From the IMG/VR virus record IMGVR_UViG_3300044608_001820, positions 1 to 53,119 of that record: a stretch of DNA of 53,119 bases. One strand, 5' to 3'. The translations under genes were made by a program, and so were the position numbers. The notes under the pieces were generated by a model that saw nothing but the letters and a program-made list of their open reading frames with translations, searched no databases and had not been told where the DNA came from. Of this stretch, positions 256 to 21,532 are shown piece by piece; positions within the stretch are counted from its first letter, which is position 1; every line of letters begins with the position of its first letter. Origin of the DNA: a virus.

Positions 256-630
256 ATGCGGACCATGTGGAGATCTGTCACGAAGTTCTTGAAGCGGTCC
301 GTGCCGCTAGTGCTACGGAGGCCGAATGTGCCCGGGATGAGCTACGACGAGGCAATCTCATTCCTTGAGAACCTGTCGATCGGTGATCTCGTCAACGGAA
401 AGATTAAAATCAAGATTGATGCTTACGACTTGATCATGCTCATTGAGGCGACGAGAGTAAGGTCCGAGAGTACGATTCTCAATTCCAAAGGCGACCCGGT
501 AAAACTCCTGTCGATGTGGGGAGAGACTGACGAGTGTGGCATGGGACAGTTCGTCGAGATCAATGTGGCGCCAGGACTGAACTACTCAGCGGTGTATGAG
601 CACGTGAAAACTGTACGGACTGGGCAGTAG
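256..630 (+). CDS. Hypothetical protein (124 aa)
   Basis: Unrecognised, with a basic N-terminus (several Arg and Lys in the first 25 residues) and a mixed alpha/beta body. I chose the ATG at 256 because AGAGGGA sits just upstream. An in-frame ATG at 187 would place the terminator hairpin inside the gene. Its stop lies directly before the first operator-promoter unit. Confidence 0.6.
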   Translation: MRTMWRSVTKFLKRSVPLVLRRPNVPGMSYDEAISFLENLSIGDLVNGKIKIKIDAYDLIMLIEATRVRSESTILNSKGDPVKLLSMWGETDECGMGQFVEINVAPGLNYSAVYEHVKTVRTGQ

Positions 631-708
631 TACACTCGTACTATGGCCACTTAAGCAACTGTCCACTCTTTTCGCCACGGACCCTCGAAAAGCTGTATAG
701 TACCTTCA
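628..708 (+). promoter_or_regulatory. Tandem-operator promoter P1
   Basis: Upstream dyad TAGTAC-ACTC-GTACTA (628-643), then the degenerate dyad GGCCACTT-AAGC-AACTGTCC (645-664), then the GTCCAC box (661-666), 29 bases, and the -10 box TATAGT (696-701). No -35 hexamer is present. The predicted start of transcription, seven bases after the -10 box, falls on the A of the ATG at 708, so the transcript is probably leaderless. Confidence 0.75.
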
Positions 709-1031
709 TGAACAAAACCAAAGTCACCGTTTCCAACCTCGCCCCTGACCAGATCGTTCAGGCGGGTTACAAGCGTCGTCACCTCAATGTCGACTCCAAT
801 CGCTTCCTTGGCTTCAAGTACAATGGCCTCTGGTTCTCGGACCTCAAGTCCCTGAAAGAGTTCATCGGCGTCAAGAACCTCAGGGAGATCGAGTTCGAAG
901 CTGATCGTCTCGAGGGTGGTTCCGTCACTGCCGAGTTCCGCAACGTCGAGGAAGGTTACATGTGGGGAGCGTACCTCTGGAACGGCGCTTTTCGCGTCGG
1001 TACCTCCGCTGACCGTCTCGTCCTGGGTTGA
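708..1031 (+). CDS. Hypothetical protein (107 aa), leaderless mRNA
   Basis: Unrecognised mixed-charge soluble protein without membrane segments. The ATG sits seven bases after the TATAGT box of P1, so there is no room for a Shine-Dalgarno site. No other in-frame Met lies near the start. The following gene overlaps or abuts the stop. Confidence 0.65.
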   Translation: MNKTKVTVSNLAPDQIVQAGYKRRHLNVDSNRFLGFKYNGLWFSDLKSLKEFIGVKNLREIEFEADRLEGGSVTAEFRNVEEGYMWGAYLWNGAFRVGTSADRLVLG

Positions 1032-1036
1032 TAAAG

Positions 1037-1258
1037 ATGGAAGAAACAAAAGCTGTGTTGAATGAGACCGAGATGAAGCGTCTCGCTGGTCTCGTAGCTG
1101 ATAAGTTAAATGAGTGGTTGCTCGACAATCACTACGACCTGATTCACGATGTCTGCAATGATGTGGTCCTCGAGGAGTATCCGAACCTTGAAGAGGAAGA
1201 TTTCTGGGAGGTCGTGCCTGACATTTTCGATCGGATCGTTCCCTTCACCTCGATCTGA
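1037..1258 (+). CDS. Small acidic hypothetical protein (73 aa)
   Basis: Unrecognised acidic protein with Trp-rich segments. A TTG at 1028 overlapping the previous stop is an alternative start. I prefer the ATG at 1037. The stop lies immediately before operator-promoter P2. Confidence 0.6.
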   Translation: MEETKAVLNETEMKRLAGLVADKLNEWLLDNHYDLIHDVCNDVVLEEYPNLEEEDFWEVVPDIFDRIVPFTSI

Positions 1259-1322
1259 GGCCACTTCGAAAACTGTCCACTAAACTCCCCGCGAGCCCTC
1301 AAAACCCTGTATAGTAAGGACA
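1259..1322 (+). promoter_or_regulatory. Operator promoter P2
   Basis: Degenerate dyad GGCCACTT-CGAA-AACTGTCC, GTCCAC box at 1275-1280, 29-base spacer, -10 TATAGT at 1310-1315, then the shared initial sequence ATCAAAACAAAAC. The leader to the next ATG is about 20 bases. Confidence 0.75.
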
Positions 1323-1339
1323 TCAAAACAAAACAACCA

Positions 1340-1609
1340 ATGACTAACGACATTCTCACCGTCCGATATGATATGTGTGGCGACGGGTCGATGTGGGAAG
1401 GATTCGCATACATCGTCGATCAACTCCCCGTCGACGGCGACGACATGATCCACAGCGCTAAGTTCGCCGGTTACGCTCCAAACGGTTACCCGATCCTCGA
1501 AGTCAAGTTCGGCAATCTGGACGTCGCTAAGGGTTTCACGGCGGTTTACTTCGGTCTTCCTGATGCCGACGACGCTGACGTGCTTGAGTATCTTGGGATT
1601 GCTGCTTGA
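1340..1609 (+). CDS. Hypothetical protein (89 aa)
   Basis: Unrecognised acidic protein with a likely beta-rich core. First gene of the cluster driven by P2. The stop overlaps a possible TTG of the next gene, so translation is probably coupled. Confidence 0.65.
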   Translation: MTNDILTVRYDMCGDGSMWEGFAYIVDQLPVDGDDMIHSAKFAGYAPNGYPILEVKFGNLDVAKGFTAVYFGLPDADDADVLEYLGIAA

Positions 1610-1611
1610 AT

Positions 1612-1818
1612 ATGACTAATCTTTCTCCCGCCGCCCAGGCCGTGCTCGCTGCCTACGAGGAGTCAAGCGACGCCTACTTCGAGGAGCGAGGTCAGCTCGC
1701 CGCCGCACTTCGTGCTGTGGCCGAGATGTGTGTTTACCCCGACGACCACGGAGTTGACTGGATACTTCCCTCGGAAATCCTTGCCATCGCTGACGAACTG
1801 GATGCAAGCAATGACTGA
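1612..1818 (+). CDS. Small cyanophage-type protein, MTNLSPAAQAVL family (68 aa)
   Basis: Begins MTNLSPAAQAVLAAY, an N-terminus that recurs, from memory, in many small cyanophage proteins of unknown function. A paralogue with the same first 14 residues lies at 2850. The C-terminus (LAIADELDA) also resembles the paralogue's LAIAAELEG. The stop overlaps the next ATG (ATGACTGA). Confidence 0.65.
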   Translation: MTNLSPAAQAVLAAYEESSDAYFEERGQLAAALRAVAEMCVYPDDHGVDWILPSEILAIADELDASND

Positions 1819-2302
1819 CACCCGAGACCTCATCTACAAACTGCTGGAAGTGGCCGATTGTTACTCTGACGGTAGAGAAACCTACGAGCCGTTCGAGCAG
1901 GTTCTCAGGGAAGCCCGTTCTTACCTACTAAATGGCGATAAACCAACAATGACCGAGCACAACCCCATCACCCCGCCGCCGGAGCTGGTGCAGCAGTGGT
2001 GGGAACAAGCCGACCAGTACCAAGACGATCCAAAGACTTACTTCGACTATGTAGCTACCGAAGCAGCCCAATGGGGCGCAGATCAGGAGCTTTTGGCTTG
2101 TGGCAACTACCTCAAACAGTGCGCTGCCTGGGAAGAAGAGGATGTAACCGAGTTCTATAACTATCGCCGCCCGAGGCCACTGAGTTTGAAGGAACTGGCC
2201 TTGGAAAGTGTAAAACGATTTGAGAAGAGCGGTGAGTTTTTCTCGGACCAAATGCGTGAACTTGAGTTTATTCGTAAAGCACTGGAGACTATCGATGACT
2301 AA
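1811..2302 (+). CDS. Small-protein fusion with AAQWGADQE motif (163 aa)
   Basis: The first 46 residues (MTDTRDLIYK...) resemble a stand-alone small protein. From Met47 (base 1949) it continues as MTEHNPITPPPEL, the start of the same family as the next gene, with the shared motifs AAQWGADQE and RRPRPLSLKE. No stop separates them, so this is either a fusion of two adjacent small genes or a gene with an internal in-frame start, since ACCAACA precedes Met47 as it does other starts here. Function unknown. Confidence 0.6.
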   Translation: MTDTRDLIYKLLEVADCYSDGRETYEPFEQVLREARSYLLNGDKPTMTEHNPITPPPELVQQWWEQADQYQDDPKTYFDYVATEAAQWGADQELLACGNYLKQCAAWEEEDVTEFYNYRRPRPLSLKELALESVKRFEKSGEFFSDQMRELEFIRKALETIDD

Positions 2303-2627
2303 CCAACACCCCATCACCCCATCGCCGGAGCTGGCGCTGCAATGGATTAACGAATACTTAAACGAGCATCCTGAAGGAGTGGACGTTGAAGTTCTTGTTG
2401 TTAACGCCGCCCAATGGGGCGCCGACCAGGAGCTGGAGGCGTGCTGCCATTACTTTGCCCGCGATCTCCGCGAAAGTCTTGCACTAGAACTCCGCGCCGC
2501 CCGCCGCCCCAAGCCGTCGAGCTTGAAAGAGCAAGCGCTAGCTCTGCTAAATAAAGCAGAAGACCCAAGTTGGGACATTAACGACTTTTCAATCGTCCGC
2601 CGCGCACTGGAGCAACTCGATGACTGA
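2295..2627 (+). CDS. AAQWGADQE-motif small protein (110 aa)
   Basis: Paralogue of the second half of the preceding gene: ITPSPELALQW near the start, AAQWGADQELEACC in the middle, RAARRPKPSSLKEQAL and a C-terminal RRALEQLDD. This family is, to my memory, common in cyanophages and has no assigned function. The start overlaps the previous stop by eight bases, and the next gene also overlaps. Confidence 0.7.
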   Translation: MTNQHPITPSPELALQWINEYLNEHPEGVDVEVLVVNAAQWGADQELEACCHYFARDLRESLALELRAARRPKPSSLKEQALALLNKAEDPSWDINDFSIVRRALEQLDD

Positions 2628-2853
2628 CTTTCGAGCGCTGTGCACTGAGCTGCTGTGCAGCCTGGAACAGTATCCGGTGCAACCTCCCAGGGACCGCAAC
2701 TTGATTGACCGCGTTCGCGCCGCCCTGGCTGAGCCCGAGGAGCAGGAGCCGACGGATGAAGAGTTAGTTGAACTCTTTAACGACAACGACTGGAATTACA
2801 TCAGCCCAGAAACTTTCCTTAACATTGCTCGTTCTGTACTGGAGTTACGATGA
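2620..2853 (+). CDS. Small acidic protein, MTDFRALCTELL family (77 aa)
   Basis: Starts MTDFRALCTELLCSLE with an LIDRVRAALAEPE segment and an acidic PTDEELVELF stretch, a recurrent unknown family in cyanophages (from memory). Both ends overlap neighbours, which indicates a translationally coupled operon. Confidence 0.65.
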   Translation: MTDFRALCTELLCSLEQYPVQPPRDRNLIDRVRAALAEPEEQEPTDEELVELFNDNDWNYISPETFLNIARSVLELR

Positions 2854-3101
2854 CTAACCTCTCCCCCGCCGCGCAGGCGGTGCTGGCCGCCTGTGGCTGC
2901 CCCGACCCAGACTCTCCGTTTCGACTGGTAGCGCGAGGCTTTGCCGGCGCCGCCCTGCGAGCTGCTGCGGATCAGGTTGCTCCTGAGCACTACTCTTGTT
3001 ATACCGGTCACGGTGAGTTTGACTTTGGCATGGATGCAAGAAATGAAGCGATCCGTGAGGATCTCCTCGCCATCGCCGCCGAGCTGGAGGGTTTCGAATG
3101 A
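2850..3101 (+). CDS. MTNLSPAAQAVL family small protein, paralogue (83 aa)
   Basis: Shares its first 14 residues with the gene at 1612 and ends in a related LLAIAAELEG segment. Ala-rich helices, no membrane segment. Function unknown. ATGA overlap with the gene before and a 4-base overlap with the one after. Confidence 0.65.
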   Translation: MTNLSPAAQAVLAACGCPDPDSPFRLVARGFAGAALRAAADQVAPEHYSCYTGHGEFDFGMDARNEAIREDLLAIAAELEGFE

Positions 3102-3289
3102 AACTCGAGCACAAGCGAGCACTCCGTTGCTTCATCCTCGAAAAGCTTGGCGAGGTGACGTGTCTTCAGCTGGCGGAGTTAGCTGAGACACACGACTGCT
3201 GCCCGTTCAGCATGGCCGAACAGTTCGACATTGAGTTCGAGCGCATCGCGAAGCTATTCAACTACCCCAACTACTCCGACGAAGAATGA
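3098..3289 (+). CDS. Small hypothetical protein (63 aa)
   Basis: Unrecognised. Predicted helical with a Cys pair (HDCCPF). The layout LGEVTCLQLAELAETHDC resembles a short helix-turn-helix but is too short to assign. Overlaps both neighbours by four bases. Confidence 0.55.
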   Translation: MKLEHKRALRCFILEKLGEVTCLQLAELAETHDCCPFSMAEQFDIEFERIAKLFNYPNYSDEE

Positions 3290-3558
3290 CCGACACAAAG
3301 TCCATTGAGCGCTCCGCCGCAAACTTCTTCGCTCACTTCTTCGGAGATACAAGCCTTCTTGATGCCCTCGAAGACGGTCGCAGTTTTCGTTACGAACCCA
3401 AACCAGACATCACTACGTACGAATTAGCACTATGCATGTACCTTCTCATAGTGCAGGCATGGAACAAACCACTAAGGGATGAACAAAAGATTTACGACCA
3501 GTTGCCCGCCGAGGCGCAACGCCACTTTGTAGTTGTTCGAGAGGATGGTAATGACTGA
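3286..3558 (+). CDS. Hypothetical protein (90 aa)
   Basis: Unrecognised soluble, largely helical protein. Placed by its ATGA overlap with the gene before and its overlap with the start at 3551. Confidence 0.6.
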   Translation: MTDTKSIERSAANFFAHFFGDTSLLDALEDGRSFRYEPKPDITTYELALCMYLLIVQAWNKPLRDEQKIYDQLPAEAQRHFVVVREDGND

Positions 3559-3940
3559 GTACCGTGCAACTTCCGATCAGTGGGAGAAAGTTCTGGGTTG
3601 GTCAGAAGACCACGACGTCAGTGTAAGCTGTGATGCCGCTTGCATTCTCGAACTGCGTGCCAGGGTTGAGGCACTGGAAGCCAGGAATAAGCCGGGGTTC
3701 ATGGAGCTGAGTGTCACGACAGCCACGGTGCCAACACCCAAATCTCTATGCAGTGATTCTCTGGTGAGGCGGGTGGCCGCAGCTCTTCATAGCGAAACAA
3801 ATAGCGGATTACCGGTGGAGGATTGGGGACCCGAAGCTCGCGCAGCCATTAGCGAGGTGGCAACGTGGTTGGAGGAGGAGTTTGGTCCTCAGATTGATTG
3901 GATTACAACTGAACTCAGAGAGGAGGCATGCAGTGACTGA
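3551..3940 (+). CDS. MTEYRAT-family small protein (129 aa)
   Basis: Begins MTEYRATSDQWEKV and contains ILELRARVEALEA, a short coiled coil. These are hallmarks of a widespread cyanophage family of unknown role (from memory). I chose the ATG at 3551, which overlaps the previous stop, over the longer reading frame. The C-terminus is unlike the family core. Confidence 0.65.
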   Translation: MTEYRATSDQWEKVLGWSEDHDVSVSCDAACILELRARVEALEARNKPGFMELSVTTATVPTPKSLCSDSLVRRVAAALHSETNSGLPVEDWGPEARAAISEVATWLEEEFGPQIDWITTELREEACSD

Positions 3941-4205
3941 AACCATCGAGAAGAAGGATGGGCGCCCGAGTCGCAAAGTCACCGTCATAAACGAACGCTA
4001 CCCGTACCGGTACATCATCGCGGGTACACTCGAGAACGGCAAACCCGACTATAGACTTCAGAAGATGCACGACTGGTCGAACCGTTACCGTGACATCTAC
4101 CTCTTCGACAACTCCATGCAATGCGACATCGCTATGGAGGATTTTGAGTACACCAAATGGTTGGATCCCGATCCTTCCGTCTCCGCTTACCGTCATTTGG
4201 ATTGA
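3933..4205 (+). CDS. Hypothetical protein (90 aa), GTG start
   Basis: A strong GAGGAGG ribosome binding site lies six bases before the GTG at 3933, which overlaps the previous stop. Basic N-terminal third, aromatic-rich middle (YPYRYIIAG). Unrecognised. Confidence 0.6.
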   Translation: MTETIEKKDGRPSRKVTVINERYPYRYIIAGTLENGKPDYRLQKMHDWSNRYRDIYLFDNSMQCDIAMEDFEYTKWLDPDPSVSAYRHLD

Positions 4206-4208
4206 ACT

Positions 4209-4364
4209 ATGAAAGAGAAAAAGCTAAGGAAACTTATCCAAGGCCCGCTAAGATTTCACCATCAAGACATTCACGAGGAGATCGATAAGATTAACATCAC
4301 ACTCGCCGAGATTTTAGCCAGCATCAAGCTCATTCGAGAGGAACTCAAGGACAATGCCGACTGA
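4209..4364 (+). CDS. Short basic/helical protein (51 aa)
   Basis: Short frame opening MKEKKLRKLIQ and continuing as amphipathic helix (IDKINITLAEILASIKLIREEL), possibly a coiled coil. Supported by tight packing: its ATG lies just after the previous stop and its end overlaps the next start at 4354. Confidence 0.5.
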   Translation: MKEKKLRKLIQGPLRFHHQDIHEEIDKINITLAEILASIKLIREELKDNAD

Positions 4365-4911: not shown

Positions 4912-4980
4912 AAAACTCAAAAATGTGAAAAACCACGAGGGCTCCCCGATGGATTCCCCGCCTCAGGACCTCGAGACGAA

Positions 4981-5050
4981 AAAAGCGGAAAGTGTGAGCC
5001 TCAAAACCCTTGCGGCACCGTGGCCTCGGATAGTACAAATGTGCTAGAGG
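4981..5050 (+). repeat. Regulatory repeat A, copy 1
   Basis: About 70 bases shared with copies at 15291 and 21533: AGTGTGAGCCTCAAAA, CCCTTGCGG, then the dyad TAGTAC-AAAT-GTGCTA (5031-5046) inside longer imperfect inverted flanks (GGCCTC / GAGGTC). All three copies lie between gene clusters. They may be a promoter (TTGCGG with TAGTAC 15 bases later), an operator or a terminator. The stretch 4912-4980 shows nothing else clear. Confidence 0.6.
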
Positions 5051-5090
5051 TCTGAGCCTGGCCCTCAGGACGGGAATCCCAAGAGCCCTA

Positions 5091-5154
5091 GGCCAATCGC
5101 AAAACTGTCCACTCTCCTCGCCAAAGGCTCCCTGGATGCCGTATAGTAGCTCTA
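5091..5154 (+). promoter_or_regulatory. Operator promoter P3
   Basis: Degenerate dyad with GTCCAC box at 5107-5112, a 29-base spacer, -10 TATAGT at 5142-5147, then initial sequence CTATCAACCAAACG. It drives the cluster that begins at 5172. Confidence 0.75.
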
Positions 5155-5171
5155 TCAACCAAACGAAACGA

Positions 5172-6458: not shown

Positions 6459-6628
6459 AAGCAACTATCTTCACGCTCTTCGCTCTCGTCATTGGTAACG
6501 CGACTCTCGCCATCGCGCAGCAACCTTGCAACACATCATTCTGGGTTTGGCAGGGCGGTGAACGAGTAAAAGTCTGCTGCAACCAACAGAACTTCTGCTT
6601 CACCAAGTACGGAATCTACAATCAGTGA
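6455..6628 (+). CDS. Small secreted Cys-rich protein (57 aa)
   Basis: A clear signal peptide (MKATIFTLFALVIGNATLAIA with a likely cut before QQP) is followed by about 35 residues with four Cys (PCN, CC, FCF), which may form two disulfides in the periplasm. Role unknown. A host-envelope effect is possible but is inference. Confidence 0.6.
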   Translation: MKATIFTLFALVIGNATLAIAQQPCNTSFWVWQGGERVKVCCNQQNFCFTKYGIYNQ

Positions 6629-6804: not shown

Positions 6805-6808
6805 ACAA

Positions 6809-7196: not shown

Positions 7197-8447
7197 TCAC
7201 TTGATATTCCAAATCGGTGCCATCTGATTCTCCCGCGAGATGTTATTCTGGCGGAGAATCTTGTAGGATCCGTCCTCCTTCTTCTCCGGTTCGATCCACT
7301 GACGCTGACCATCGAGAGCCGCTGCGACCTCGCGGATCCAGTCACCTGCGGTGCACGCCGGCACGTTTTGGCAAATGATGTTGATGTCCTTCGTCGGCAT
7401 TTGCACTTTCTCAGCAAAGTCAGGTGGGAATCCCATCAGTGCGAATGCTTCCGAGGTCATCAGCCAGCGGTCCTCATACGGATGCATGAGATAGGGCAAT
7501 GTCTGCCACATCAGACTACGCGTGTGATCCCATGCGAGTTTGATCGACTTATCGAGGATGCAACTATCGGTCTCAAACTTGTGTTTCGCGTGGCGCAGAA
7601 ACTTATTCGTCTTCGGATCCGAGATAGCATCAATCGCGTCGTCAAACCAGTTATTCTCCTTCACGACACGAACGATCGTCGTCATTCGATCGCTTGCGAC
7701 TTCCGCCAAAATCTCTTGCTTGGTGTAGCCCTTAAACTTCGACTGGATGAATTGCCAGATGAGATCCGCACTCGGTGGCAGGTCGGTGTCGTAGTTGACT
7801 GACGCTGTCTTAGCGAAGTTGCCACTCTTGAGAAACTCGTGATATTGCTTGTACGGTCTCTTGATGTGATTAAGCACGGGAACCTTGTCGCCCTTCCACA
7901 GGAAGAAAAAGCTACGAGTTCTCTCCTGAGGTACACCGTGATTGATCGAAGAAGTCTTCACGAGACTCATCGTGTACCCGTGCTCGAATGCCAACGCGTT
8001 CAGTCGCTCCGCGAACTCCTCGCCCATTTTAGTGAATAGGGTCGGGGCATTCTCGACCATGATCGCTTTCGGCTTGAGGTACTTCACCGAGTACAGCGCC
8101 GCGTTGTGCATGTGCATGTTGCTGGGAGCCATGCACCCACGAGGATTTTTTGACTTCTCGTTTTTGCCTGTGGATTGGTTAGCTAAACTCAGTCCCGCGC
8201 AAGGAGGCAGCGAGGTGATGATGTCAACGTACTTCACCGGAAGTTGATCCATGGTGAAGTCCAGAAACGGAACATCATCCATATACTCGAGGCAGTACTT
8301 ATCGTTCGCGGCGAATGCGCTACTCCACGATGCGATCCACTCAGGCTTATTCCCCAGAGCCATCGTGGTCCCGATGACACTACCGCCCACGAGTGGAATA
8401 ATATGTCCGTGCGTATACGTCATTGGTGACGTTTGCCAAAGTCCCAT
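7197..8447 (-). CDS. DNA (cytosine-5) methyltransferase (416 aa)
   Basis: Transfers a methyl group from S-adenosylmethionine to C5 of cytosine in DNA. Motif IV PPC with the catalytic Cys is near residue 83, motif VI ENAP near 133, motif VIII PQERTR near 174. C-terminal motifs read ALMGFPPDF and CQNVPACTAGDWIREV, matching the FPxxF and NxVP motifs IX and X. The usual FxGxGG motif I is replaced by PLVGGSVIG, so it belongs to a divergent phage branch. No restriction partner is adjacent, which suggests genome protection. I took the start at 8447, because a longer start would run through promoter P13 on the other strand. It is the only gene called on the minus strand. Confidence 0.9.
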   Translation of the reverse strand: MGLWQTSPMTYTHGHIIPLVGGSVIGTTMALGNKPEWIASWSSAFAANDKYCLEYMDDVPFLDFTMDQLPVKYVDIITSLPPCAGLSLANQSTGKNEKSKNPRGCMAPSNMHMHNAALYSVKYLKPKAIMVENAPTLFTKMGEEFAERLNALAFEHGYTMSLVKTSSINHGVPQERTRSFFFLWKGDKVPVLNHIKRPYKQYHEFLKSGNFAKTASVNYDTDLPPSADLIWQFIQSKFKGYTKQEILAEVASDRMTTIVRVVKENNWFDDAIDAISDPKTNKFLRHAKHKFETDSCILDKSIKLAWDHTRSLMWQTLPYLMHPYEDRWLMTSEAFALMGFPPDFAEKVQMPTKDINIICQNVPACTAGDWIREVAAALDGQRQWIEPEKKEDGSYKILRQNNISRENQMAPIWNIK

Positions 8448-8459
8448 TCTAACAAAAGG

Positions 8460-8539
8460 TAGAACAAGTGAACCTGTGACAGTTGGAGAAGTGGCACGTA
8501 AAAAGTCACCGATCCCCGTCATGGAGTACAATAGATCTA
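8460..8539 (+). promoter_or_regulatory. Tandem-operator promoter P13 (divergent from the methyltransferase)
   Basis: Upstream half-dyad TAGAAC-AAGT-GAACCT, two bases, then GACAGTT-GGAG-AAGTGGC (8478-8495), a degenerate box, 28 bases and -10 TACAAT (8527-8532). The ATG at 8539 is exactly seven bases after the -10 box, predicting a leaderless mRNA. The operators also sit just upstream of the methyltransferase start on the other strand. Confidence 0.6.
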
Positions 8540-8742
8540 TGAACAACCCCATTGCACGAGCTCGAGCCCTTTACGACAAGGGTTCCCGAGAGAACATCGT
8601 CCAGTTCCTGCAGGAGATGGACCCCAACGGTTCTTGGACTGACGAGGCATCTTACGCCGAAGGACTGGAGCCTCTGACCTACGATGAGGCACTCCTCGAA
8701 CTCGAGGACATGATCAAGGAACTGGAAGCCGTGCCCGCCTGA
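8539..8742 (+). CDS. Small acidic protein (67 aa), leaderless mRNA
   Basis: Unrecognised acidic helical protein (TYDEALLELEDMIKELE near the end). ATG at the predicted transcription start. Its stop overlaps the ATG of the topoisomerase gene by one base, so the two are translated as an operon. Confidence 0.6.
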   Translation: MNNPIARARALYDKGSRENIVQFLQEMDPNGSWTDEASYAEGLEPLTYDEALLELEDMIKELEAVPA

Positions 8743-10727
8743 TGACTGATTCAAATATCACCCCCGTAAATCTCGTCAACGAGATGAAGACGGCATATCT
8801 CGACTACAGCATGGCTGTGCTTGTCGGGCGCGCAATTCCTGATCTCTACGATGGCTTGAAGCCTGTTACTCGTCGTGTGCTCACGGCGATGAAGTGGCTT
8901 AACCTTAAGCCTGACGCCCGCTATATGAAAGCCGCCCGTGTCGAGGGCGAGACCATGGGCAAACTCCACCCCCACGGTGGAGCGTACGGCGCGATGGTTA
9001 CTGCCGCCTCGTGGTGGACGAACAATCACCCTCTTGTCGACGGACACGGAAATTGGGGCTCCCCGACTGACGGTCCCGCCGCCGCACGTTACACCGAAGC
9101 CAAACTCACTTCGTTCGCGTACGAGGCCCTCCTTCAGGACTCTGAGACGTGGGTGACTCGTCCGAACTACGACGGAAGTCTGGAAGAGCCGGTGCAATTC
9201 AACGCTCGACTTCCCGTACTGCTGATGAATGGTGGTGAGGGCATCGGTGTGGGTTATGCGACGAAGATCCCGACTCATAACCTCCGTGGAGTGGCTAAGG
9301 CACTCCGTGCTCTCGTCGATGATGATATGATCACGGCGAAGAATAATCTCGCACCAGACTTTCCAACGGGTTGCGATATCGTCAAGGACGAAGGATTGGT
9401 CGAGTATCTAAACACGGGCGCCGGATCGATTCGGATGCGAGCTGTGTGCACTCGTGAGAAGCTTGACTACGGCAAGCGATCGAAGCGTGATGCTTTAGTG
9501 TTCACCAACCTGCCTCTCCACATCAACACCGAGCAGGTGGGAGAGCAGGTGAAGGAAGCTATCGAGAAAGGAAAGATCACCACCGTCGCTGACGTTCGGG
9601 ATGAGACCGATAAAGCCGGTGTGCGCCTCGTTATCGTTCTCAAGGCGGCCGCTGACGTCGATCAAGCCGAAGCGGAACTCTTCCACCACACGTCACTCGA
9701 CACGCGATTCGCAGCACGGAATCTCGCCATCGACGGTTTGAAGCCAGTGCAGTTGGCGCCGCACGACATCCTGATCAAGTGGGCAGGATGGAGGGATCAG
9801 CGACTACTTGCCTCCCTCAAAGCCGAACTCGAGAAGCGTCGCAATCGCCTCGAGGTAGTGCAGGGACTGATCACAGCGATCACGATGATCGACGAGGTGA
9901 TCGTCCAGATTCGTATGGCGAAGGATCGTCCAGATGCACGTAAGCGCCTCGAGAAGATGCAGTTTACACCTGCACAGGCTGATGCCATCCTCGATATGAG
10001 GTTAGCGCAGCTAACCAAGCTCGACGACAAGCAACTACAAACCGACGCGAAGGAGATTCAGGCGCGGATCAAGGAGATCCTCGGACTGACGTCCTCCGAG
10101 AAGAAACGCCGTGAGTACATCGTTACCGAAGTGGAGCAACTCGCGGAACGTCATGGGAATGCGAGGCGTTCCAAGGCTATCGCTGAGCCTAAACAACTTT
10201 CCGTTCAGACTGTCAAGGTCGGACGGAAGAATGTAGAGGTCAAGACTACTGGTCCGAAGACTCGGTTCATGTTGCTCGATGAGGAGAAGGGAATCATCAC
10301 TCAGCTGAAGGGTCCACGTGGTGCTAATGTCACTGCTCAGGACGATCAGAAACTGGTGGTGGTTTGCGGTAACGGGATGTTCTACAAACTGACGTCTAAG
10401 CATCGTGGTCCGATCACGACGGAACCGACGAAAGTTCTCTCCCGTGGTAACACCGGAAAGCTTTCCGACACCCCATTGATCGCTGTTTGGAAGACAAATG
10501 AGGGTGTGTTCGCTAACGTGATTCCGTGGGAAACGCTGACAAAGACGACGTCTAAAGGCAAGCGTTGGTTGCCAGAGGGAGCGGAGCTTCTTAGCCTTGG
10601 AGGCACTTACACTCTGAAGATGCAGGGACGGAAGAAGGATAAGGTCATTGGGATCAACACCGTGAAGCCTCGTCCTGTTGGAGGTCCTGGCACGAAGCTG
10701 GCGAAGCTCGAGGAAGTTTCGGTGTAA
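8742..10727 (+). CDS. Type IIA DNA topoisomerase A subunit, GyrA/ParC-like (661 aa)
   Basis: Breakage-reunion subunit that cuts both DNA strands through a tyrosine. The winged-helix core is seen as GLKPVTRRVL near residue 39, GKLHPHGG at 73-80 and AAARYTEAKL with the catalytic Tyr near 117. The coiled-coil region and DILDMRLAQLTKLD (exit-gate DxRLxxLT signature) lie near residue 410. At 661 residues it is shorter than host GyrA (over 800), with a reduced C-terminal wrapping domain. The ATPase B subunit is not in the window. Probably handles supercoiling during phage replication. Confidence 0.9.
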   Translation: MTDSNITPVNLVNEMKTAYLDYSMAVLVGRAIPDLYDGLKPVTRRVLTAMKWLNLKPDARYMKAARVEGETMGKLHPHGGAYGAMVTAASWWTNNHPLVDGHGNWGSPTDGPAAARYTEAKLTSFAYEALLQDSETWVTRPNYDGSLEEPVQFNARLPVLLMNGGEGIGVGYATKIPTHNLRGVAKALRALVDDDMITAKNNLAPDFPTGCDIVKDEGLVEYLNTGAGSIRMRAVCTREKLDYGKRSKRDALVFTNLPLHINTEQVGEQVKEAIEKGKITTVADVRDETDKAGVRLVIVLKAAADVDQAEAELFHHTSLDTRFAARNLAIDGLKPVQLAPHDILIKWAGWRDQRLLASLKAELEKRRNRLEVVQGLITAITMIDEVIVQIRMAKDRPDARKRLEKMQFTPAQADAILDMRLAQLTKLDDKQLQTDAKEIQARIKEILGLTSSEKKRREYIVTEVEQLAERHGNARRSKAIAEPKQLSVQTVKVGRKNVEVKTTGPKTRFMLLDEEKGIITQLKGPRGANVTAQDDQKLVVVCGNGMFYKLTSKHRGPITTEPTKVLSRGNTGKLSDTPLIAVWKTNEGVFANVIPWETLTKTTSKGKRWLPEGAELLSLGGTYTLKMQGRKKDKVIGINTVKPRPVGGPGTKLAKLEEVSV

Positions 10728-10736
10728 AGTGCAATG

Positions 10737-10779
10737 TGCGCTCTCGCGATGAGAACTTGAGCTTCTTGACAAGAGCGCA
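10737..10779 (+). other. Inverted repeat after the topoisomerase gene
   Basis: Perfect 8-bp stem TGCGCTCT / AGAGCGCA with a 27-base loop, starting ten bases after the stop. The downstream arm follows TTGACA (10766-10771). There is no T-run, so it may be a processing or termination structure or part of a promoter for the next gene. Confidence 0.4.
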
Positions 10780-10810
10780 TATAACAATAAATAAATATAG
10801 GGTAATAATT

Positions 10811-10829
10811 AAACATCCTCGCGATGTTT
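10811..10829 (+). promoter_or_regulatory. Hairpin immediately before a start codon
   Basis: Perfect 7-bp stem AAACATC / GATGTTT with a 5-base loop ending three bases before the ATG at 10832, where a ribosome binding site would be expected. It could block translation of one transcript form. Confidence 0.5.
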
Positions 10830-10831
10830 TA

Positions 10832-11170
10832 ATGTTGCAGTTCAACGACCCAAACTTTTATTCTGATGGACGTCCAAGAAGATTTGGTAAGACCAAAACT
10901 ATAGATAATAAATTCAGTAAGCACAACAATCCAATGGACAAAGTACAAGTAGAGTACTTCACTCCCACTGTAGAAAAAGCTCGCGAATGGCGACCTATTA
11001 AGTTAATCAATGATTCAATCGGGGTAGCTTACACGATTCCTGAAAAGCTACGTTGGGTTGACATTACTCGTAACCTGCTTAAAGATGGCACAAACCCGTC
11101 AAACATCGCTAAACTAATTCGAGGAGAATGTAAACGCGTTAACGGCTGGCGTTGCGAGTTCCTCGACTGA
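10832..11170 (+). CDS. AT-rich protein with NUMOD-like C-terminus (112 aa)
   Basis: The last 50 residues (VDITRNLLKDGTNPSNIAKLIRGECKRVNGWRCEF) resemble the small DNA-binding NUMOD repeats attached to homing endonucleases: S-x-I-A-x-L-I-x-G followed by G-W. No HNH or GIY-YIG catalytic motif is visible, so it may be a remnant or a stand-alone DNA binder. The base composition of 10740-11160 is clearly richer in A and T than its neighbours, which suggests transfer. Met at 10934 is an alternative start. Confidence 0.55.
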   Translation: MLQFNDPNFYSDGRPRRFGKTKTIDNKFSKHNNPMDKVQVEYFTPTVEKAREWRPIKLINDSIGVAYTIPEKLRWVDITRNLLKDGTNPSNIAKLIRGECKRVNGWRCEFLD

Positions 11171-11248
11171 TACAACTGTACTTGTGACACTTCACTAAGT
11201 GTCCACTAAACTCCCCATGAGTCCCTTGGACCCTGTACAGTAGTCCTA
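11168..11248 (+). promoter_or_regulatory. Tandem-operator promoter P4
   Basis: TGATAC-AACT-GTACTT, two bases, the perfect dyad GACACTT-CACT-AAGTGTC (11186-11203), GTCCAC at 11201-11206, 29 bases, -10 TACAGT at 11236-11241, then CTATCAACAAAAC. Confidence 0.75.
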
Positions 11249-11265
11249 TCAACAAAACAAATCGA

Positions 11266-11975: not shown

Positions 11976-11983
11976 AACAACAC

Positions 11984-13131: not shown

Positions 13132-13133
13132 TC

Positions 13134-13340
13134 ATGGGACGTCCAACCGATCGTGACCCAAATTACATGCGCCAGAAGTTTGGCACTACCAAACTTGCTA
13201 CTGACTACGGCGTATTCGACGCGGTGGAACGTCCGCGTGATCCGTCCCTCATTCGTAACTCCGACGACTACGACGACTGGGAGTACGGAACCGAACCCAT
13301 CCCACATGATAGCACATGGACGAGAAAACCCAGTTCATAG
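13134..13340 (+). CDS. Small hypothetical protein (68 aa)
   Basis: Asp-, Pro- and Arg-rich, probably disordered. AAGGAGG precedes the ATG at good spacing. The end overlaps the next short gene. Confidence 0.55.
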   Translation: MGRPTDRDPNYMRQKFGTTKLATDYGVFDAVERPRDPSLIRNSDDYDDWEYGTEPIPHDSTWTRKPSS

Positions 13341-13492
13341 AAGCCACTCTCGATTGGGCGGAAAGTCGAATCGAAGTGCTTCTAAATGATGGGATGATCG
13401 AGGAAGCTCTGGCAATCGGTCATGAGTTTCATGAGTGGTCGCGGGCTCCCCTGGGATTTGATCACGACCTCGAGTACCCGGTGGACACTTGA
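13316..13492 (+). CDS. Small helical protein (58 aa), paralogue of neighbours
   Basis: Short frame MDEKTQFIEATLDWAESRIEVL... It resembles the proteins at 13560 and 29307 (pattern AxDRIxxLxxxA with long helices). Its stop codon lies inside the dyad of promoter P6, so operator and coding sequence overlap. Confidence 0.55.
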   Translation: MDEKTQFIEATLDWAESRIEVLLNDGMIEEALAIGHEFHEWSRAPLGFDHDLEYPVDT

Positions 13493-13546
13493 TTAAGTGT
13501 CTACTCGGGGTTCCCAGAGCACCGATGGCGGTGTAGAATAAACCTA
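13484..13546 (+). promoter_or_regulatory. Operator promoter P6
   Basis: Perfect dyad GACACTT-GATT-AAGTGTC (13484-13501), box GTCTAC at 13499-13504, 29 bases, -10 TAGAAT at 13534-13539. The dyad overlaps the end of the gene before. Confidence 0.7.
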
Positions 13547-13559
13547 GTTGAAAACAACC

Positions 13560-13808
13560 ATGATCCAAACCTTCAACCTCGCCGTGGACCGCATCGAGCA
13601 CCTGATCGATATGGCAAAGGACCATAGCGAGCGTGGCGATAACGACACCAAAGAGTTCCTTCTCGCCGAGGCGAAGATCCTCGCGATGGTGATGGACGGC
13701 GCCGATGACGTATTCCAGATGAAGTACCATCGTTACGCTTCCGATTCCTTTGGCGTAGACTTTGAGATCACGCACGGTGATCCCGACCTGATGTTTGGTG
13801 GCGTGTGA
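13560..13808 (+). CDS. Small helical protein, AVDRIEHLI family (82 aa)
   Basis: Starts MIQTFNLAVDRIEHLIDMAKDH. The same layout begins the gene at 29307 (DLAVDRIHYLVERAQD), which also sits behind an operator promoter. Function unknown. I chose the ATG at 13560 over a TTG at 13548. Confidence 0.65.
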   Translation: MIQTFNLAVDRIEHLIDMAKDHSERGDNDTKEFLLAEAKILAMVMDGADDVFQMKYHRYASDSFGVDFEITHGDPDLMFGGV

Positions 13809-13975
13809 TGTTTACAAAAGGTCCCTTAGCCGGCATCCACAGTGGATTTTGGTGGTGCGGTCAATGCTTTGAAGTCTGGCTTCATCTGATGTCAGAAGAC
13901 GTGGATGTTGACTACAACTGTTGGGACTTTTTCTATCATTTAAGCTATTGGTACCCCGATCACGAAGGACTATGA
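13808..13975 (+). CDS. Small aromatic-rich protein (55 aa)
   Basis: Short frame with WWCGQCF near residue 15 and many Trp, Tyr and Phe. The CGQC pair resembles a thioredoxin or zinc motif, but the protein is too short for a redox fold. ATGA overlaps at both ends. Confidence 0.5.
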   Translation: MFTKGPLAGIHSGFWWCGQCFEVWLHLMSEDVDVDYNCWDFFYHLSYWYPDHEGL

Positions 13976-14337
13976 GCGACATTCAAACATGCGGCTTCCA
14001 CGACTCTCTCACCGACGAGTTTAGTTTGTCGATGGCATTCGGGGATGGTCCCGCGCTGACATTCGAGGGACTCACTCGGGAACAAGTGATCAACCTACGT
14101 GATTGCCTTGACTGTATGATCTGGGATAAACTCGACGGCGGTTACGATGAGGTCCTCGACGACATTCGAGCCACTATCGGACCCTACACTTCCGTGATGG
14201 ATGAGAAGGTGGCGGCGAAGGAAGCGCTTGAAACGATAAAGGCACTTCTTTCACGAAAGGTCGATTATTCTGGCGATCCTGAGGGAATCCTCTACTGGCA
14301 GGATGTTGAGGGAATGCTGACACCACCGCTTAACTAA
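13972..14337 (+). CDS. Hypothetical protein (121 aa)
   Basis: Unrecognised acidic protein. LTREQVINLRDCLDCMIWDKL suggests a helical core. The ATG at 13972 overlaps the previous stop. Confidence 0.6.
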   Translation: MSDIQTCGFHDSLTDEFSLSMAFGDGPALTFEGLTREQVINLRDCLDCMIWDKLDGGYDEVLDDIRATIGPYTSVMDEKVAAKEALETIKALLSRKVDYSGDPEGILYWQDVEGMLTPPLN

Positions 14338-14339
14338 CC

Positions 14340-14864
14340 ATGGACTCACCCTCGTTCGAAATCCTGCACTTCTCCGTGCGGTATCCAAATGATCCTTTGG
14401 ATCCTCCACGGTATCCGTATTTCACTCACAATTTAGTATGGAGGGCCATCGACCCTGAGTTTCATAGCTTCTGCGTCGACTGGACGAAAGATTGGGTGAA
14501 GACGACCGTGGTGTTTGACACGGAGAGGGCCGAGGAGTATATTCGCGGGTTGAGTATGGAGGAGGATGAGCAGGTCGTCGAGAATCAGTTCGGTTACGCG
14601 CCGGTGAAACTGGTACAACGTGACGGTATTCGCCGCGACACCATCTATCATGACGCGTGGCAGATGCAGTTTCCGTTTGTGTTCCACCTCGAGAAGTTCG
14701 ATGTCTTCCGCCACTGGGGATTCACGGAATCCAATGCGATCACGCAAGCGTGCATCCACGAGATCGAGATGTTGAAGCTGGGCGAGCACATGTACCGGGG
14801 ACGGTTCGCTCCGTGGTGTCACTTCCGCAGGGTGATTGAAACGTTAGATCGGTTTTGGGACTAA
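14340..14864 (+). CDS. Hypothetical protein (174 aa)
   Basis: Unrecognised, rich in Trp, Phe, His and Tyr. No catalytic signature or membrane segment. Two bases after the previous stop, two bases before the next start. Confidence 0.6.
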   Translation: MDSPSFEILHFSVRYPNDPLDPPRYPYFTHNLVWRAIDPEFHSFCVDWTKDWVKTTVVFDTERAEEYIRGLSMEEDEQVVENQFGYAPVKLVQRDGIRRDTIYHDAWQMQFPFVFHLEKFDVFRHWGFTESNAITQACIHEIEMLKLGEHMYRGRFAPWCHFRRVIETLDRFWD

Positions 14865-14865
14865 A

Positions 14866-15054
14866 ATGAACTACCTATGCTTCGTCGACGGAGTCATTGA
14901 GTACGGCAGCACAGATCTCGATGACTTCAACCATTATCACATGATGTACGCTGAAGATCATGCCAATGCAAATGTGGAGTATCTCGCGCTAACCGATGAA
15001 GAATATGAGGCGATGCTCTCCTTAGACGAAGATGATCTGGAACATCAAGAATGA
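14866..15054 (+). CDS. Small acidic protein (62 aa)
   Basis: Unrecognised, with a His/Met/Tyr cluster (NHYHMMYAEDHAN) and an acidic end. Overlaps the next frame by 23 bases. Confidence 0.55.
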   Translation: MNYLCFVDGVIEYGSTDLDDFNHYHMMYAEDHANANVEYLALTDEEYEAMLSLDEDDLEHQE

Positions 15055-15238
15055 CTTCGAAGATCCGATGGAGAAAGCCATCAAGAAGATGCTTTCCTAT
15101 GGGGGCAACATACCATCGGAGTGCATGAACGCATACGACTATGAGGTCTACCTGAAAGTAGCGCCACCTCATGAGTTAGAGCGCGATATAGTCTCCGAGG
15201 ACACGATGCGAAAGATGTGTACATTTTACAATTTTTAG
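15032..15238 (+). CDS. Small hypothetical protein (68 aa)
   Basis: Unrecognised. The ATG at 15032 overlaps the previous gene by 23 bases. An internal ATG at 15068 (MEKAIKKM) is an alternative start without that long overlap. Last gene before a regulatory block. Confidence 0.5.
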   Translation: MIWNIKNDFEDPMEKAIKKMLSYGGNIPSECMNAYDYEVYLKVAPPHELERDIVSEDTMRKMCTFYNF

Positions 15239-15290
15239 CTCATGGGACGGGGGACCTACGAGGTATCCATCGCCAAGCGGCTCGTCGCGC

Positions 15291-15360
15291 AAAAATCAAA
15301 AAGTGTAAGGCTCAAAGCCCTTGCAGTGCCTGGGTCGACGTGTGGTACGGACGTACTAGA
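15291..15360 (+). repeat. Regulatory repeat A, copy 2
   Basis: Shares AAAAAGTGTAAGGCTCAAA and CCCTTGCAG with the other copies. The dyad TGGTAC-GGAC-GTACTA (15343-15358) is nested in a longer stem (TGCCTGGGTC / GACCAGGCA). The intervals 15239-15290 and 15361-15393 hold no gene. Confidence 0.6.
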
Positions 15361-15393
15361 GACCAGGCAGGGTCTGGCTCCTCGAAACCCAGG

Positions 15394-15474
15394 CAGTACA
15401 AGTGTACTTGTGCCACTCAAGCAACTGTCCACTAAACCCGCCACGAGGCCCCTGGAGGCTGTATAGTAAGATCA
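15394..15474 (+). promoter_or_regulatory. Tandem-operator promoter P7
   Basis: CAGTAC-AAGT-GTACTT, two bases, GCCACTC-AAGC-AACTGTC, GTCCAC at 15427-15432, 29 bases, -10 TATAGT at 15462-15467, then ATCATCAACCAAAAGG. Confidence 0.75.
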
Positions 15475-15494
15475 TCAACCAAAAGGAAAACCAT

Positions 15495-15659
15495 ATGAAC
15501 GTCTACGAAAAGCAACTGGTCCAGAAGGGCTACTCCCTCTCCGAGATCCGGGCTACGAAAGCTCCGAAGCGCGAGTTCCCTTGCACGATCGGTGCTCGTT
15601 ACTTCGAATCCGAAGCCGAGTACAATGAGGCTCTGGCTGACTTCCTGAACGGGAACTGA
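15495..15659 (+). CDS. Small hypothetical protein (54 aa)
   Basis: Short basic protein MNVYEKQLVQKGYSLSEIRA... AAAGGAAA precedes the ATG in the leader of P7. Single-gene unit between P7 and P8. Unrecognised. Confidence 0.6.
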   Translation: MNVYEKQLVQKGYSLSEIRATKAPKREFPCTIGARYFESEAEYNEALADFLNGN

Positions 15660-15723
15660 GGCCAGTTCAAAAACTGTCCACTAAACTCCCCGCCGCCTCT
15701 CAAAAAGCTGTATAGTACACTCA
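15660..15723 (+). promoter_or_regulatory. Operator promoter P8
   Basis: Dyad GGCCAGTT-CAAA-AACTGTCC (seven of eight positions symmetric), GTCCAC at 15676-15681, 29 bases, -10 TATAGT at 15711-15716. The ATG at 15723 is seven bases after it. Confidence 0.75.
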
Positions 15724-16019
15724 TGAATCAAATCAAAGCTATCGGAGCTCGTACCTCCGCCAAGACTGGTAAAGTCTACTCCTACGATCTCGAGCGTCAG
15801 ACCCGTACGGACTACGCCGAGTTTATGAATCCCGAGTCCAAGTACGAGCGGGTGTACTATCAGGTCAACGTCTATGACGCTGGCGGTAAACTCGTCAACT
15901 TCGCCTTCGTCGATGACGCGGACGATCTCATGGCAGTGTATGATGCCGTGAGTGGTGTTATCGAGTGGGACGAAACTCCCAACGAAGTCCTCGCTTCCAT
16001 GCACTCCCGCTACGACTGA
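15723..16019 (+). CDS. Hypothetical protein (98 aa), leaderless mRNA
   Basis: Unrecognised beta-rich protein (YYQVNVYDAGGKLVNFAFVDDADD). Its start coincides with the predicted transcription start of P8, and no internal Met near the start gives a better site. Confidence 0.65.
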   Translation: MNQIKAIGARTSAKTGKVYSYDLERQTRTDYAEFMNPESKYERVYYQVNVYDAGGKLVNFAFVDDADDLMAVYDAVSGVIEWDETPNEVLASMHSRYD

Positions 16020-16041
16020 GGTCCTCAGAGGTAAACAACTA

Positions 16042-16227
16042 ATGTTAACTAACGAAGCCTACATCGAGCGCCTCGAGCAGCTCATCAGTGACTTACATCA
16101 CGAGCTGGGGATGACCGTCTACAGCGTTGAGGACACTTCGGCCGCTAGCGATATTTACCGCACAGCTGATAAGCTGTGGGACGAATTCTGCGCGACCAAA
16201 GCCGCCCACTACACGGAGGAGCAATGA
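16042..16227 (+). CDS. Small hypothetical protein (61 aa)
   Basis: Helical (YIERLEQLISDLHHEL). AGAGGTAAACAACTA precedes the ATG at 16042. Unrecognised. Overlaps the next start. Confidence 0.55.
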   Translation: MLTNEAYIERLEQLISDLHHELGMTVYSVEDTSAASDIYRTADKLWDEFCATKAAHYTEEQ

Positions 16228-16370
16228 GCCTCATCTCGAAGCAGGACCACGATCTCGCCATCTGCGCGCTCGCCATCGTGGTCGAAATGGAAGATCCCAA
16301 AGATCCCGCTGTGGTACAAATGAAACAGCTCCTTCAGTGGCTAAGACTTCAGCGCCGTAAATTCGATTAG
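16224..16370 (+). CDS. Small hypothetical protein (48 aa)
   Basis: Short helical protein MSLISKQDHDLAICALAIVV... with a basic end, ATGA overlap with the gene before. Unrecognised. Confidence 0.5.
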   Translation: MSLISKQDHDLAICALAIVVEMEDPKDPAVVQMKQLLQWLRLQRRKFD

Positions 16371-16377
16371 ACTCATC

Positions 16378-16851
16378 ATGTCGCCGCCCGTTGCGCTCAA
16401 CAAAAGTATCCTTGTTCTCAACGCATCGTACGAGCCTCTCAACGTATGCTCAGGGCGGAGAGCATTTGTGCTGGTATTGAAAAAGAAGGCACAGGTGCTA
16501 TCAAGGCAGGTCATCCGACTTCTTAGCTACATCAGACTTCCGATGAGTCGGATCAATGCGAAGAAGCCAAGTCGGAATCTCATCCTCAAGCGCGACAATT
16601 TCACTTGTCAGTACTGCGGCGCAGACCGCAATCTGACAATCGATCATGTCTTACCGCAATCACGAGGAGGGAAGGATACGTGGGAGAATCTTGTTGCCTG
16701 CTGTTATACTTGCAACAACGCAAAAGATAATCGTACTCCTGAGGAGTGGGGCGTCCCACTTCGCAGCAATCCGCACGCTCCCTTTAGTCGGTTTCTTCTG
16801 ACGCTAAGTACAAACTCAGTGCCAGAGTGGCGTGAGTACTTATATGTCTAA
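16378..16851 (+). CDS. HNH endonuclease (157 aa)
   Basis: Metal-dependent nuclease of the bacterial/cyanobacterial HNH type. The family N-terminus VLNASYEPLNV is at 13-23, the zinc ligands CQYC at 77-80 and CYTC at 109-112, the catalytic DHVLPQSRGG at 89-98, and WENLVACC with NNAKDNRTPEEWG beyond. Similar genes occur as host genes in cyanobacteria, so it may have been acquired from a host. Phage relatives often work in DNA packaging or as mobile nucleases; neither is proven here. It lies just before the tRNA array. Confidence 0.85.
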   Translation: MSPPVALNKSILVLNASYEPLNVCSGRRAFVLVLKKKAQVLSRQVIRLLSYIRLPMSRINAKKPSRNLILKRDNFTCQYCGADRNLTIDHVLPQSRGGKDTWENLVACCYTCNNAKDNRTPEEWGVPLRSNPHAPFSRFLLTLSTNSVPEWREYLYV

Positions 16852-16869
16852 GTTCACATTTAGACAGAT

Positions 16870-16884
16870 CTTTGATAATCAAAG
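16870..16884 (+). promoter_or_regulatory. Palindrome before the first tRNA gene
   Basis: CTTTGAT-A-ATCAAAG is a perfect 7-1-7 palindrome eight bases before the first tRNA. It contains GATAAT, a possible -10 box, with TTCACA 15 bases upstream. It may be the promoter of the first two tRNA genes. Confidence 0.35.
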
Positions 16885-16892
16885 AACTTGAT

Positions 16893-16965
16893 CGGGATGT
16901 AGCCCAGCGGAAGAGGCCATGGACTTAAAATCCATTCAGGGTGGGTTCGAATCCCACCATCCCGA
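16893..16965 (+). tRNA. tRNA-Leu(UAA), short variable arm
   Basis: 7-bp acceptor CGGGATG/CATCCCG, anticodon stem ATGGA/TCCAT with loop CTTAAAA (anticodon UAA), T-arm GTGGG-TTCGAAT-CCCAC, discriminator A. The variable region has only five bases, although bacterial leucine tRNAs normally carry a long extra arm. CCA not encoded. Confidence 0.75.
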
Positions 16966-16971
16966 TCGAAT

Positions 16972-17052
16972 GCCCAGATGGTGGAATGGTATACACAGCA
17001 CGCTTAGAACGTGCCGCTGCAAGGCATGGAGGTTCGAGTCCTCTTCTGGGCA
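16972..17052 (+). tRNA. tRNA-Leu(UAG)
   Basis: Acceptor GCCCAGA/TCTGGGC, loop CTTAGAA (anticodon UAG), long variable arm, T-loop TTCGAGT, discriminator A. A normal class II leucine tRNA. Confidence 0.9.
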
Positions 17053-17089
17053 TAGTCCAATCTTTGGACTAAATATACTCAACTTAGGG

Positions 17090-17170
17090 TAATACAAGTG
17101 TACTTGTGACACTTGCCTAAGTGTCCACTAAAAGTCCCAAGGGGCGCGTGGATCCTGTATATTGATTTCA
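17090..17170 (+). promoter_or_regulatory. Tandem-operator promoter P9 (tRNA operon)
   Basis: TAATAC-AAGT-GTACTT, two bases, perfect dyad GACACTT-GCCT-AAGTGTC (17108-17125), GTCCAC at 17123-17128, 29 bases, -10 TATATT at 17158-17163. The transcript would begin CATGGTTGGGGG and lead into tRNA-Lys(CUU). Confidence 0.75.
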
Positions 17171-17171
17171 T

Positions 17172-17197
17172 GGTTGGGGGAGACACCCCGCCGAACC
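17172..17197 (+). ncRNA. Conserved 5' leader hairpin of tRNA operon (P9)
   Basis: GGTT...AACC closes a GGGG/CCCC hairpin directly at the 5' end of the P9 transcript, followed by TCGAAAA. The P10 transcript starts with a hairpin of the same design but different inner bases (17495-17531). Confidence 0.5.
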
Positions 17198-17224
17198 TCG
17201 AAAACTTCATAAGCAATATTCTCT

Positions 17225-17296
17225 GGGTCGCTAACTCAGTGGTAGAGTAGTCGGCTCTTAACCGATCTGTCCTCGGTTCGAATCCGAGGCGACCCA
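17225..17296 (+). tRNA. tRNA-Lys(CUU)
   Basis: Acceptor GGGTCGC/GCGACCC, loop CTCTTAA (anticodon CUU), T-loop TTCGAAT, discriminator A. CCA not encoded. Confidence 0.9.
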
Positions 17297-17298
17297 TC

Positions 17299-17402
17299 GA
17301 GACCGGATCACGGGGTGCCTGGGCGGCACTCGGAAAGAAAAGCCTCCAGTAGGAACTTTCCAGTGACGGGTTCGATTCCCGTCCATTCCACTTTCCGGTC
17401 TC
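17299..17402 (+). ncRNA. Candidate cloverleaf-like RNA with T-arm
   Basis: A perfect 9-bp closing stem (GAGACCGGA / TCCGGTCTC) encloses three hairpins: GTGCC-TGGGC-GGCAC, GGAAAG...CTTTCC with an 18-base loop, and GACGGG-TTCGATT-CCCGTC, which is a textbook tRNA T-arm. No anticodon arm of normal size is present and the bases 3' of the T-arm do not pair as an acceptor stem. It may be a tRNA-like RNA, a decayed tRNA or a processing structure. Confidence 0.5.
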
Positions 17403-17412
17403 AAGGCGCCGC

Positions 17413-17493
17413 TAGTACCCCTGTACTAGGGACACTTCACCAAGTGTCCACTAAGCGCGCCACCCGCCCCTTGGGCGGTGTATATTAGATTCA
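17413..17493 (+). promoter_or_regulatory. Tandem-operator promoter P10 (tRNA operon)
   Basis: Perfect dyad TAGTAC-CCCT-GTACTA, two bases, perfect dyad GACACTT-CACC-AAGTGTC (17431-17448), GTCCAC at 17446-17451, 29 bases, -10 TATATT at 17481-17486. This is the best-preserved copy of the composite site. Confidence 0.8.
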
Positions 17494-21472: not shown

Positions 21473-21532
21473 GGATTTTTTCACGACGAGACGGCGTCCC
21501 GCGATAGATACTACGTCAAGGCCCCTCAGAAC

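Follow-up and report, generated by a model that had tools for sequence, protein, structure and literature searches.

A probable cyanobacterial LexA box at a fixed distance from a phage promoter element in five promoters of a cyanophage fragment

Why do some promoters of a virus carry, besides the palindrome that they share with their neighbours, a second palindrome always placed at the same distance from it? The question is raised by a 53-kb virus fragment (IMG/VR record IMGVR_UViG_3300044608_001820), the whole of which, 53,119 nucleotides, was analysed and is here called the window. Its DNA polymerase shares 50% identity with that of Synechococcus phage S-CBWM1 and about 36% with that of S-TIM5; as judged from its sequence, the fragment is an S-CBWM1-like cyanophage, and the host would be a picocyanobacterium, an assignment taken solely from the hosts of relatives. 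Its cultured relatives are regarded as lytic. The window contains about 30 tRNA genes, and a permuted tmRNA (RF04321, score above gathering, positions 20588-20788) adjoins a phage tRNA cluster. A second IMG/VR contig (G001) is 99.996% identical to positions 26822-53119.

Thirteen promoters in the window contain the first dyad, as part of the pattern GNCASTT-N4-AASTGTC, CACTAAA, TG-TATAGT (Table 1). In five of them, hereafter composite promoters, a palindrome resembling TAGTAC-N4-GTACTA ends 2 bp before the first dyad, so that its centre lies exactly 19 bp upstream. The earlier note had reported this arrangement, with centres 19 bp apart, at the promoters that it called P1, P4, P7, P9 and P10, and it was found to be exact at 646, 11186, 15412, 17108 and 17431. 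A weaker second dyad had also been claimed at P13, which corresponds to the promoter at 8478 if the numbering is inferred correctly. This one was not confirmed: the sequence TAGAACAAGTGAACCT pairs at only two of six positions and its GAAC...GAAC is a direct repeat, though it is the 11th best match to the LexA matrix described below. The poor promoter at 8478 lies between the gene of a C-5 cytosine DNA methylase (7197-8552, minus strand) and a divergent topoisomerase-like ORF (8742-10727), or overlaps the methylase gene start.

In the composite promoters the second dyad is centred at about -72.5 and the first at about -53.5 from the predicted start, and the distance from the second dyad to the TATA-like sequence is 60.5 bp. 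The composite promoters at 646, 11186 and 15412 are followed by small ORFs that match only families of unknown function, and the next annotated genes after those at 17108 and 17431 are tRNAs.

Table 1. Palindromes, promoters and repeated elements in the window. Mismatches are counted against TAGTACN4GTACTA; ranks are those of the LexA matrix over all window positions.
Feature	Sequence	Position	Strand	Mismatches	Rank	Context
Second dyad	TAGTACACTCGTACTA	628-643		0	3	overlaps stop codon of ORF 187-630
Second dyad	TGATACAACTGTACTT	11168-11183		3	5	overlaps stop codon of ORF 10736-11170
Second dyad	CAGTACAAGTGTACTT	15394-15409		2	1	ahead of first dyad 15412-15429
Second dyad	TAATACAAGTGTACTT	17090-17105		2	2	ahead of first dyad 17108-17125
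Second dyad	TAGTACCCCTGTACTA	17413-17428		0	7	ahead of first dyad 17431-17448
Degenerate sequence	TAGAACAAGTGAACCT	8460-8475			11	same register before poor first dyad 8478-8495; no true palindrome
Further box	TAGTACAAATGTGCTA	5031-5046		1	4	centre 62 bp before first-dyad centre (5092-5109)
Further box	TGGTACGGACGTACTA	15343-15358		1	8	centre 51 bp before box of promoter 15412
Further box	TAGTACGATCGTACTA	21587-21602		0	6	TATAAT 21654-21659 about 59.5 bp downstream; first dyad absent
First dyad	GCCACTTAAGCAACTGTC	646-663	+			TATAGT at 696-701
First dyad	GACACTTCACTAAGTGTC	11186-11203	+			TACAGT at 11236-11241
First dyad	GCCACTCAAGCAACTGTC	15412-15429	+			TATAGT at 15462-15467
First dyad	GACACTTGCCTAAGTGTC	17108-17125	+			TATATT at 17158-17163; tRNA-Lys 17224-17298 downstream
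First dyad	GACACTTCACCAAGTGTC	17431-17448	+			TATATT at 17481-17486; tRNA-Glu 17553-17625 downstream
First-dyad promoter starts		646, 1260, 5092, 8478 (poor), 11186, 11702, 13484, 15412, 15661, 17108, 17431, 25797, 29228
Dispersed element, copy 1		4915-5050	+			ends in 5031 box
Dispersed element, copy 2		15222-15362	+			ends in 15343 box
Dispersed element, copy 3		21462-21606	+			ends in 21587 box

The 16-bp pattern is moderately enriched in the window (18 occurrences at no more than three mismatches, 9.3 being expected), and its core AGTACN4GTACT strongly so, with four occurrences as compared to 0.0 expected in local shuffles. The palindrome itself suggested a LexA site; since the idea did not arise blindly, bias was limited by building a weight matrix solely from the cyanobacterial boxes printed in PMC3091678, which was symmetrised and applied to each position of the window. 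The eight clear copies of the box took ranks 1 to 8, and five of them stand exactly at the register, whereas none of the ten best matches of a reversed (not complemented) control matrix does. The probability that five of the eight best matches fall at the register by chance is about 5e-17, or about 1e-14 if any common offset within 100 bp is allowed; both are estimates that treat the sites as independent, an assumption violated by shared descent of the promoter cassettes. At 9 bits the matrix gave 14 matches as compared to 8.8 expected, a mild enrichment over the whole window, and the LexA signal is therefore in the top scores. The boxes were also compared with the published consensus RGTACNNNDGTWCB / AGTACWNWTGTACT, of which the strict form RGTACNNNDGTWCB matches three sites only, that at 628 on one strand. 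The spacing GTA-N6-TAC found here differs from that of the NtcA box (GTA-N8-TAC), which was rejected as a candidate. The second dyad is very probably a bona fide cyanobacterial LexA (SOS) box, which is the best identification that its sequence offers. Since no LexA-type DNA-binding domain (PF01726) was found in the fragment or in 11 further cyanophage records, several of which are also incomplete, the LexA of the host is the likely ligand; a phage protein with LexA-like specificity may take this part, the phage genome being available only in part.

On the host side, one genus, Cyanobium, was sampled (41 genomes), and 30 recA loci were retrieved. The exact AGTACN4GTACT is present in 28 of these, and a one-mismatch version, GGTACAGACGTACT when read towards recA, in locus L184; the shorter locus L186 contains no palindrome within two mismatches. 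A weaker, related box is seen at many lexA loci, and several give no match; as the consensus itself served to scan the recA and lexA loci, the scan demonstrates the presence of the box and not its blind discovery. A box also occurs near UmuD-like genes (partial TIGR00498 matches read as UmuD) in six Cyanobium genomes, directly after or near the stop codon in the five loci shown. Counted over entire Cyanobium genomes, the near-exact palindrome exceeds a reversed control by a modest margin only, and for this reason the host argument rests on where the palindrome is located. The LexA of these genomes is apparently cleavable, as its sequence contains an Ala-Gly cleavage motif (VAAGG) and the serine motif NGDSM in all 31 proteins read; the five shown at full length also have the lysine motif TTLKH.

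The first dyad has a different distribution. The pattern GNCACTTN4AAGTGTCCACT, searched with up to one mismatch, had no match in the 41 Cyanobium genomes, which argues against a host site, and the element GNCASTT-N4-AASTGTCCACT is found in the named T4-like cyanophages P-SSM7, S-B43 and DSL-LC02. In the cyanophage-like IMG/VR loci inspected it precedes a -10-like sequence. Together with CACTAAA it recurs in cyanophage-like IMG/VR contigs (L053, L059, L063 and W02-W04) as well as in named T4-like cyanophages, often with a C-rich/G-rich stem and a T-run ahead of a TATAAT-like sequence. By these comparisons, the first dyad is a separate, phage-specific promoter element common to T4-like cyanophages. 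None of 28 distinct first-dyad sites followed by YACT in other phages has a LexA box (score at least 9) at the register. Because the first dyad occurs in other phages without the box, and its strict form is absent from Cyanobium, the two dyads are independent elements that the lineage of the window combines. The suggestion that some of the promoters are under added control by a second, distinct regulator agrees well with this picture, in which the second dyad matches a host LexA box and the first is phage-specific; the two regulators may also touch or cooperate, as the earlier note proposed.

How far the arrangement is kept among relatives was the point on which the earlier note had made its proposal depend, and the answer is mixed. 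In G004, where most of the protein-coding blocks that align with the window are about 66-77% identical to it in nucleotides, two first-dyad promoters are detectable, and by their position they are orthologous to those at 15412 and 15661. Each is preceded by a degenerate box-like palindrome, in one case at the register and in the other displaced by 1 bp (the matrix ranks being 7 and 1); the sequence CGATACAAGTGCACTC at position 6597 belongs to the promoter orthologous to 15412, while window promoter 15661, unlike its G004 counterpart, has no box. G002, G007, G010, S-CBWM1 and L246 contain neither the first dyad nor the LexA box. Repeated dyads of S-CBWM1 are terminator-like, with T-rich tails, and are not the same element. 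G005 corresponds only to the part of the window beyond about 18 kb, where the first-dyad promoters of the window also lack boxes, so that the composite promoters fall outside this comparison. In IMG/VR the composite pattern was not found at the spacing of the window; a variable-gap version matched three stretches that are alike in their local sequence, in a region resembling a jumbo-phage major head protein gene, and these were judged to be chance matches. Since no box stands at the register in the other first-dyad phages, and the five relatives just named lack both dyads, the two-dyad arrangement is, within the sequences compared, confined to the lineage of the window.

Three further copies of the box, beyond those in the earlier note, begin at 5031, 15343 and 21587. 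Each terminates a dispersed intergenic element of about 140 nt that is present in three copies in the window. The element also occurs in G005 (nhmmer E 1.5e-13), where its middle segment looks inverted by eye relative to the window, and weakly in G004; an exact pattern search found it nowhere else in IMG/VR. The box at 21587 is at about -71.5 in the promoter at 21654, and because its distance to TATAAT (59.5 bp, as compared to 60.5 bp in the composite promoters) is nearly the same where the phage dyad is missing, the promoter may be no less important than the first dyad in fixing where the box lies.

The explanation that best accounts for these observations overall, and which we consider fairly probable, is that a host LexA site was built into five phage promoters, where LexA would modulate, and perhaps dampen, activation through the first dyad until the SOS response sets in. 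The identity of the box and its fixed position are supported by the sequence, and from these we infer binding, its sign and the link to SOS. An intact LexA dimer would bind the box, abutting a protein on the first dyad, and would modulate, somewhat more likely dampen than enhance, the activation by that protein of a promoter that mostly has no obvious -35, acting through the adjacent protein or through the alpha subunit of the polymerase. Infection, UV or breakdown of the host genome would lead to RecA-stimulated cleavage of LexA, whereupon the box-bearing genes and tRNA clusters would shift their expression together and the box-free first-dyad promoters would not. Expression of the box-bearing genes that depends on LexA and SOS is, on this evidence, rather to be expected. 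Simple occlusion of RNA polymerase cannot be the predicted mode of action at -72.5; as a site at this position is outside the core promoter, repression and activation cannot be told apart from the sequence, and we lean only slightly towards repression, activation having somewhat less than even chances.

The strongest rival, which nevertheless seems rather unlikely, makes LexA a co-activator that from its site at about -72 contacts RNA polymerase or stabilises the protein on the first dyad; box-bearing promoters would then be strong early in healthy cells and fall at SOS. The location of the box upstream of the core promoter and the usual lack of a -35 agree with this, and in Synechocystis the hox operon is activated by LexA and a far-upstream site accompanied positive control of pilA9 (PMC4759255); however, the LexA of Synechocystis has neither the cleavage site nor the serine and reads other sequences, which makes it a weak model for Cyanobium. 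It is improbable that the phasing reflects inheritance only, through repeated copying of one box-bearing cassette whose box has no present function. The composite promoters are indeed related cassettes, with 53% identity in the linker, but the arms of the box are 83% identical in pairwise comparisons whereas the box spacer (45%), the first-dyad spacer (40%) and the upstream flank (26%) have drifted, and boxes also end the separate dispersed element. Slightly less probable still is a LexA sponge, in which LexA is titrated by the replicating phage DNA, so that recA and umuDC of the host are derepressed: the 53 kb contain eight good boxes, four of them exact AGTACN4GTACT, whereas five complete cyanophage genomes have none or one exact copy apiece, which would suit it, yet a sponge has no need of five boxes at a single exact promoter register. 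That the dyads are RNA hairpins of upstream transcripts is most improbable. In its favour, the deviations of the 5031 and 15343 copies are G-U-compatible, and these copies can be drawn by eye inside outer stems, but the intergenic elements fold unremarkably (z -0.3 to -1.1), A-C mismatches occur at 11168, 17090 and in G005, and the C/G position of the first dyad does not covary; no Rfam family covers the dyads.

The preferred reading suggests that a cyanophage reads the SOS state of its host to time some of its genes. If this is true, a phage of a lytic-type lineage would follow the SOS status of cells that it infects in sunlit water, a setting in which UV damage is frequent, and the window would offer a natural comparison of the same phage promoter with and without the box of a host regulator. 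Only tentatively can we go further and propose that an otherwise lytic lineage wired host LexA into a promoter subset and tRNA clusters so as to sense damage to the host DNA or breakdown of the host genome, with LexA and a phage factor side by side at a fixed 19-bp phasing.

Most known cases in which the LexA of a host controls phage genes concern temperate phages. In the titles and abstract openings of the literature found, a coverage that leaves out most subscription journals, a host LexA box arrangement at cyanophage promoters is not described. The cyanobacterial boxes published by Li et al. 2010 (PMC3091678) at picocyanobacterial SOS genes (recA, umuDC and lexA) have the same palindrome AGTAC-N4-GTACT as the phage second dyad; those of the window differ in being viral, in lying at about -72 of phage promoters and in adjoining a phage-specific dyad. 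The T4-like cyanophages P-SSM7, S-B43 and DSL-LC02 share the first dyad and, unlike the window, have no LexA box at the register in the distinct sites examined. A further likeness is to Bacillus thuringiensis phage GIL01, in whose promoters P1 and P3, according to excerpts of PMC6182141 and PMC4551915, host LexA acts with phage gp7, gp6 being the activator. In both cases host LexA boxes are built into phage promoters, where LexA acts with a phage factor (in the window, a predicted one); GIL01, as these excerpts describe it, is temperate and has its LexA boxes within the promoter, whereas in the window the centre of the box lies upstream.
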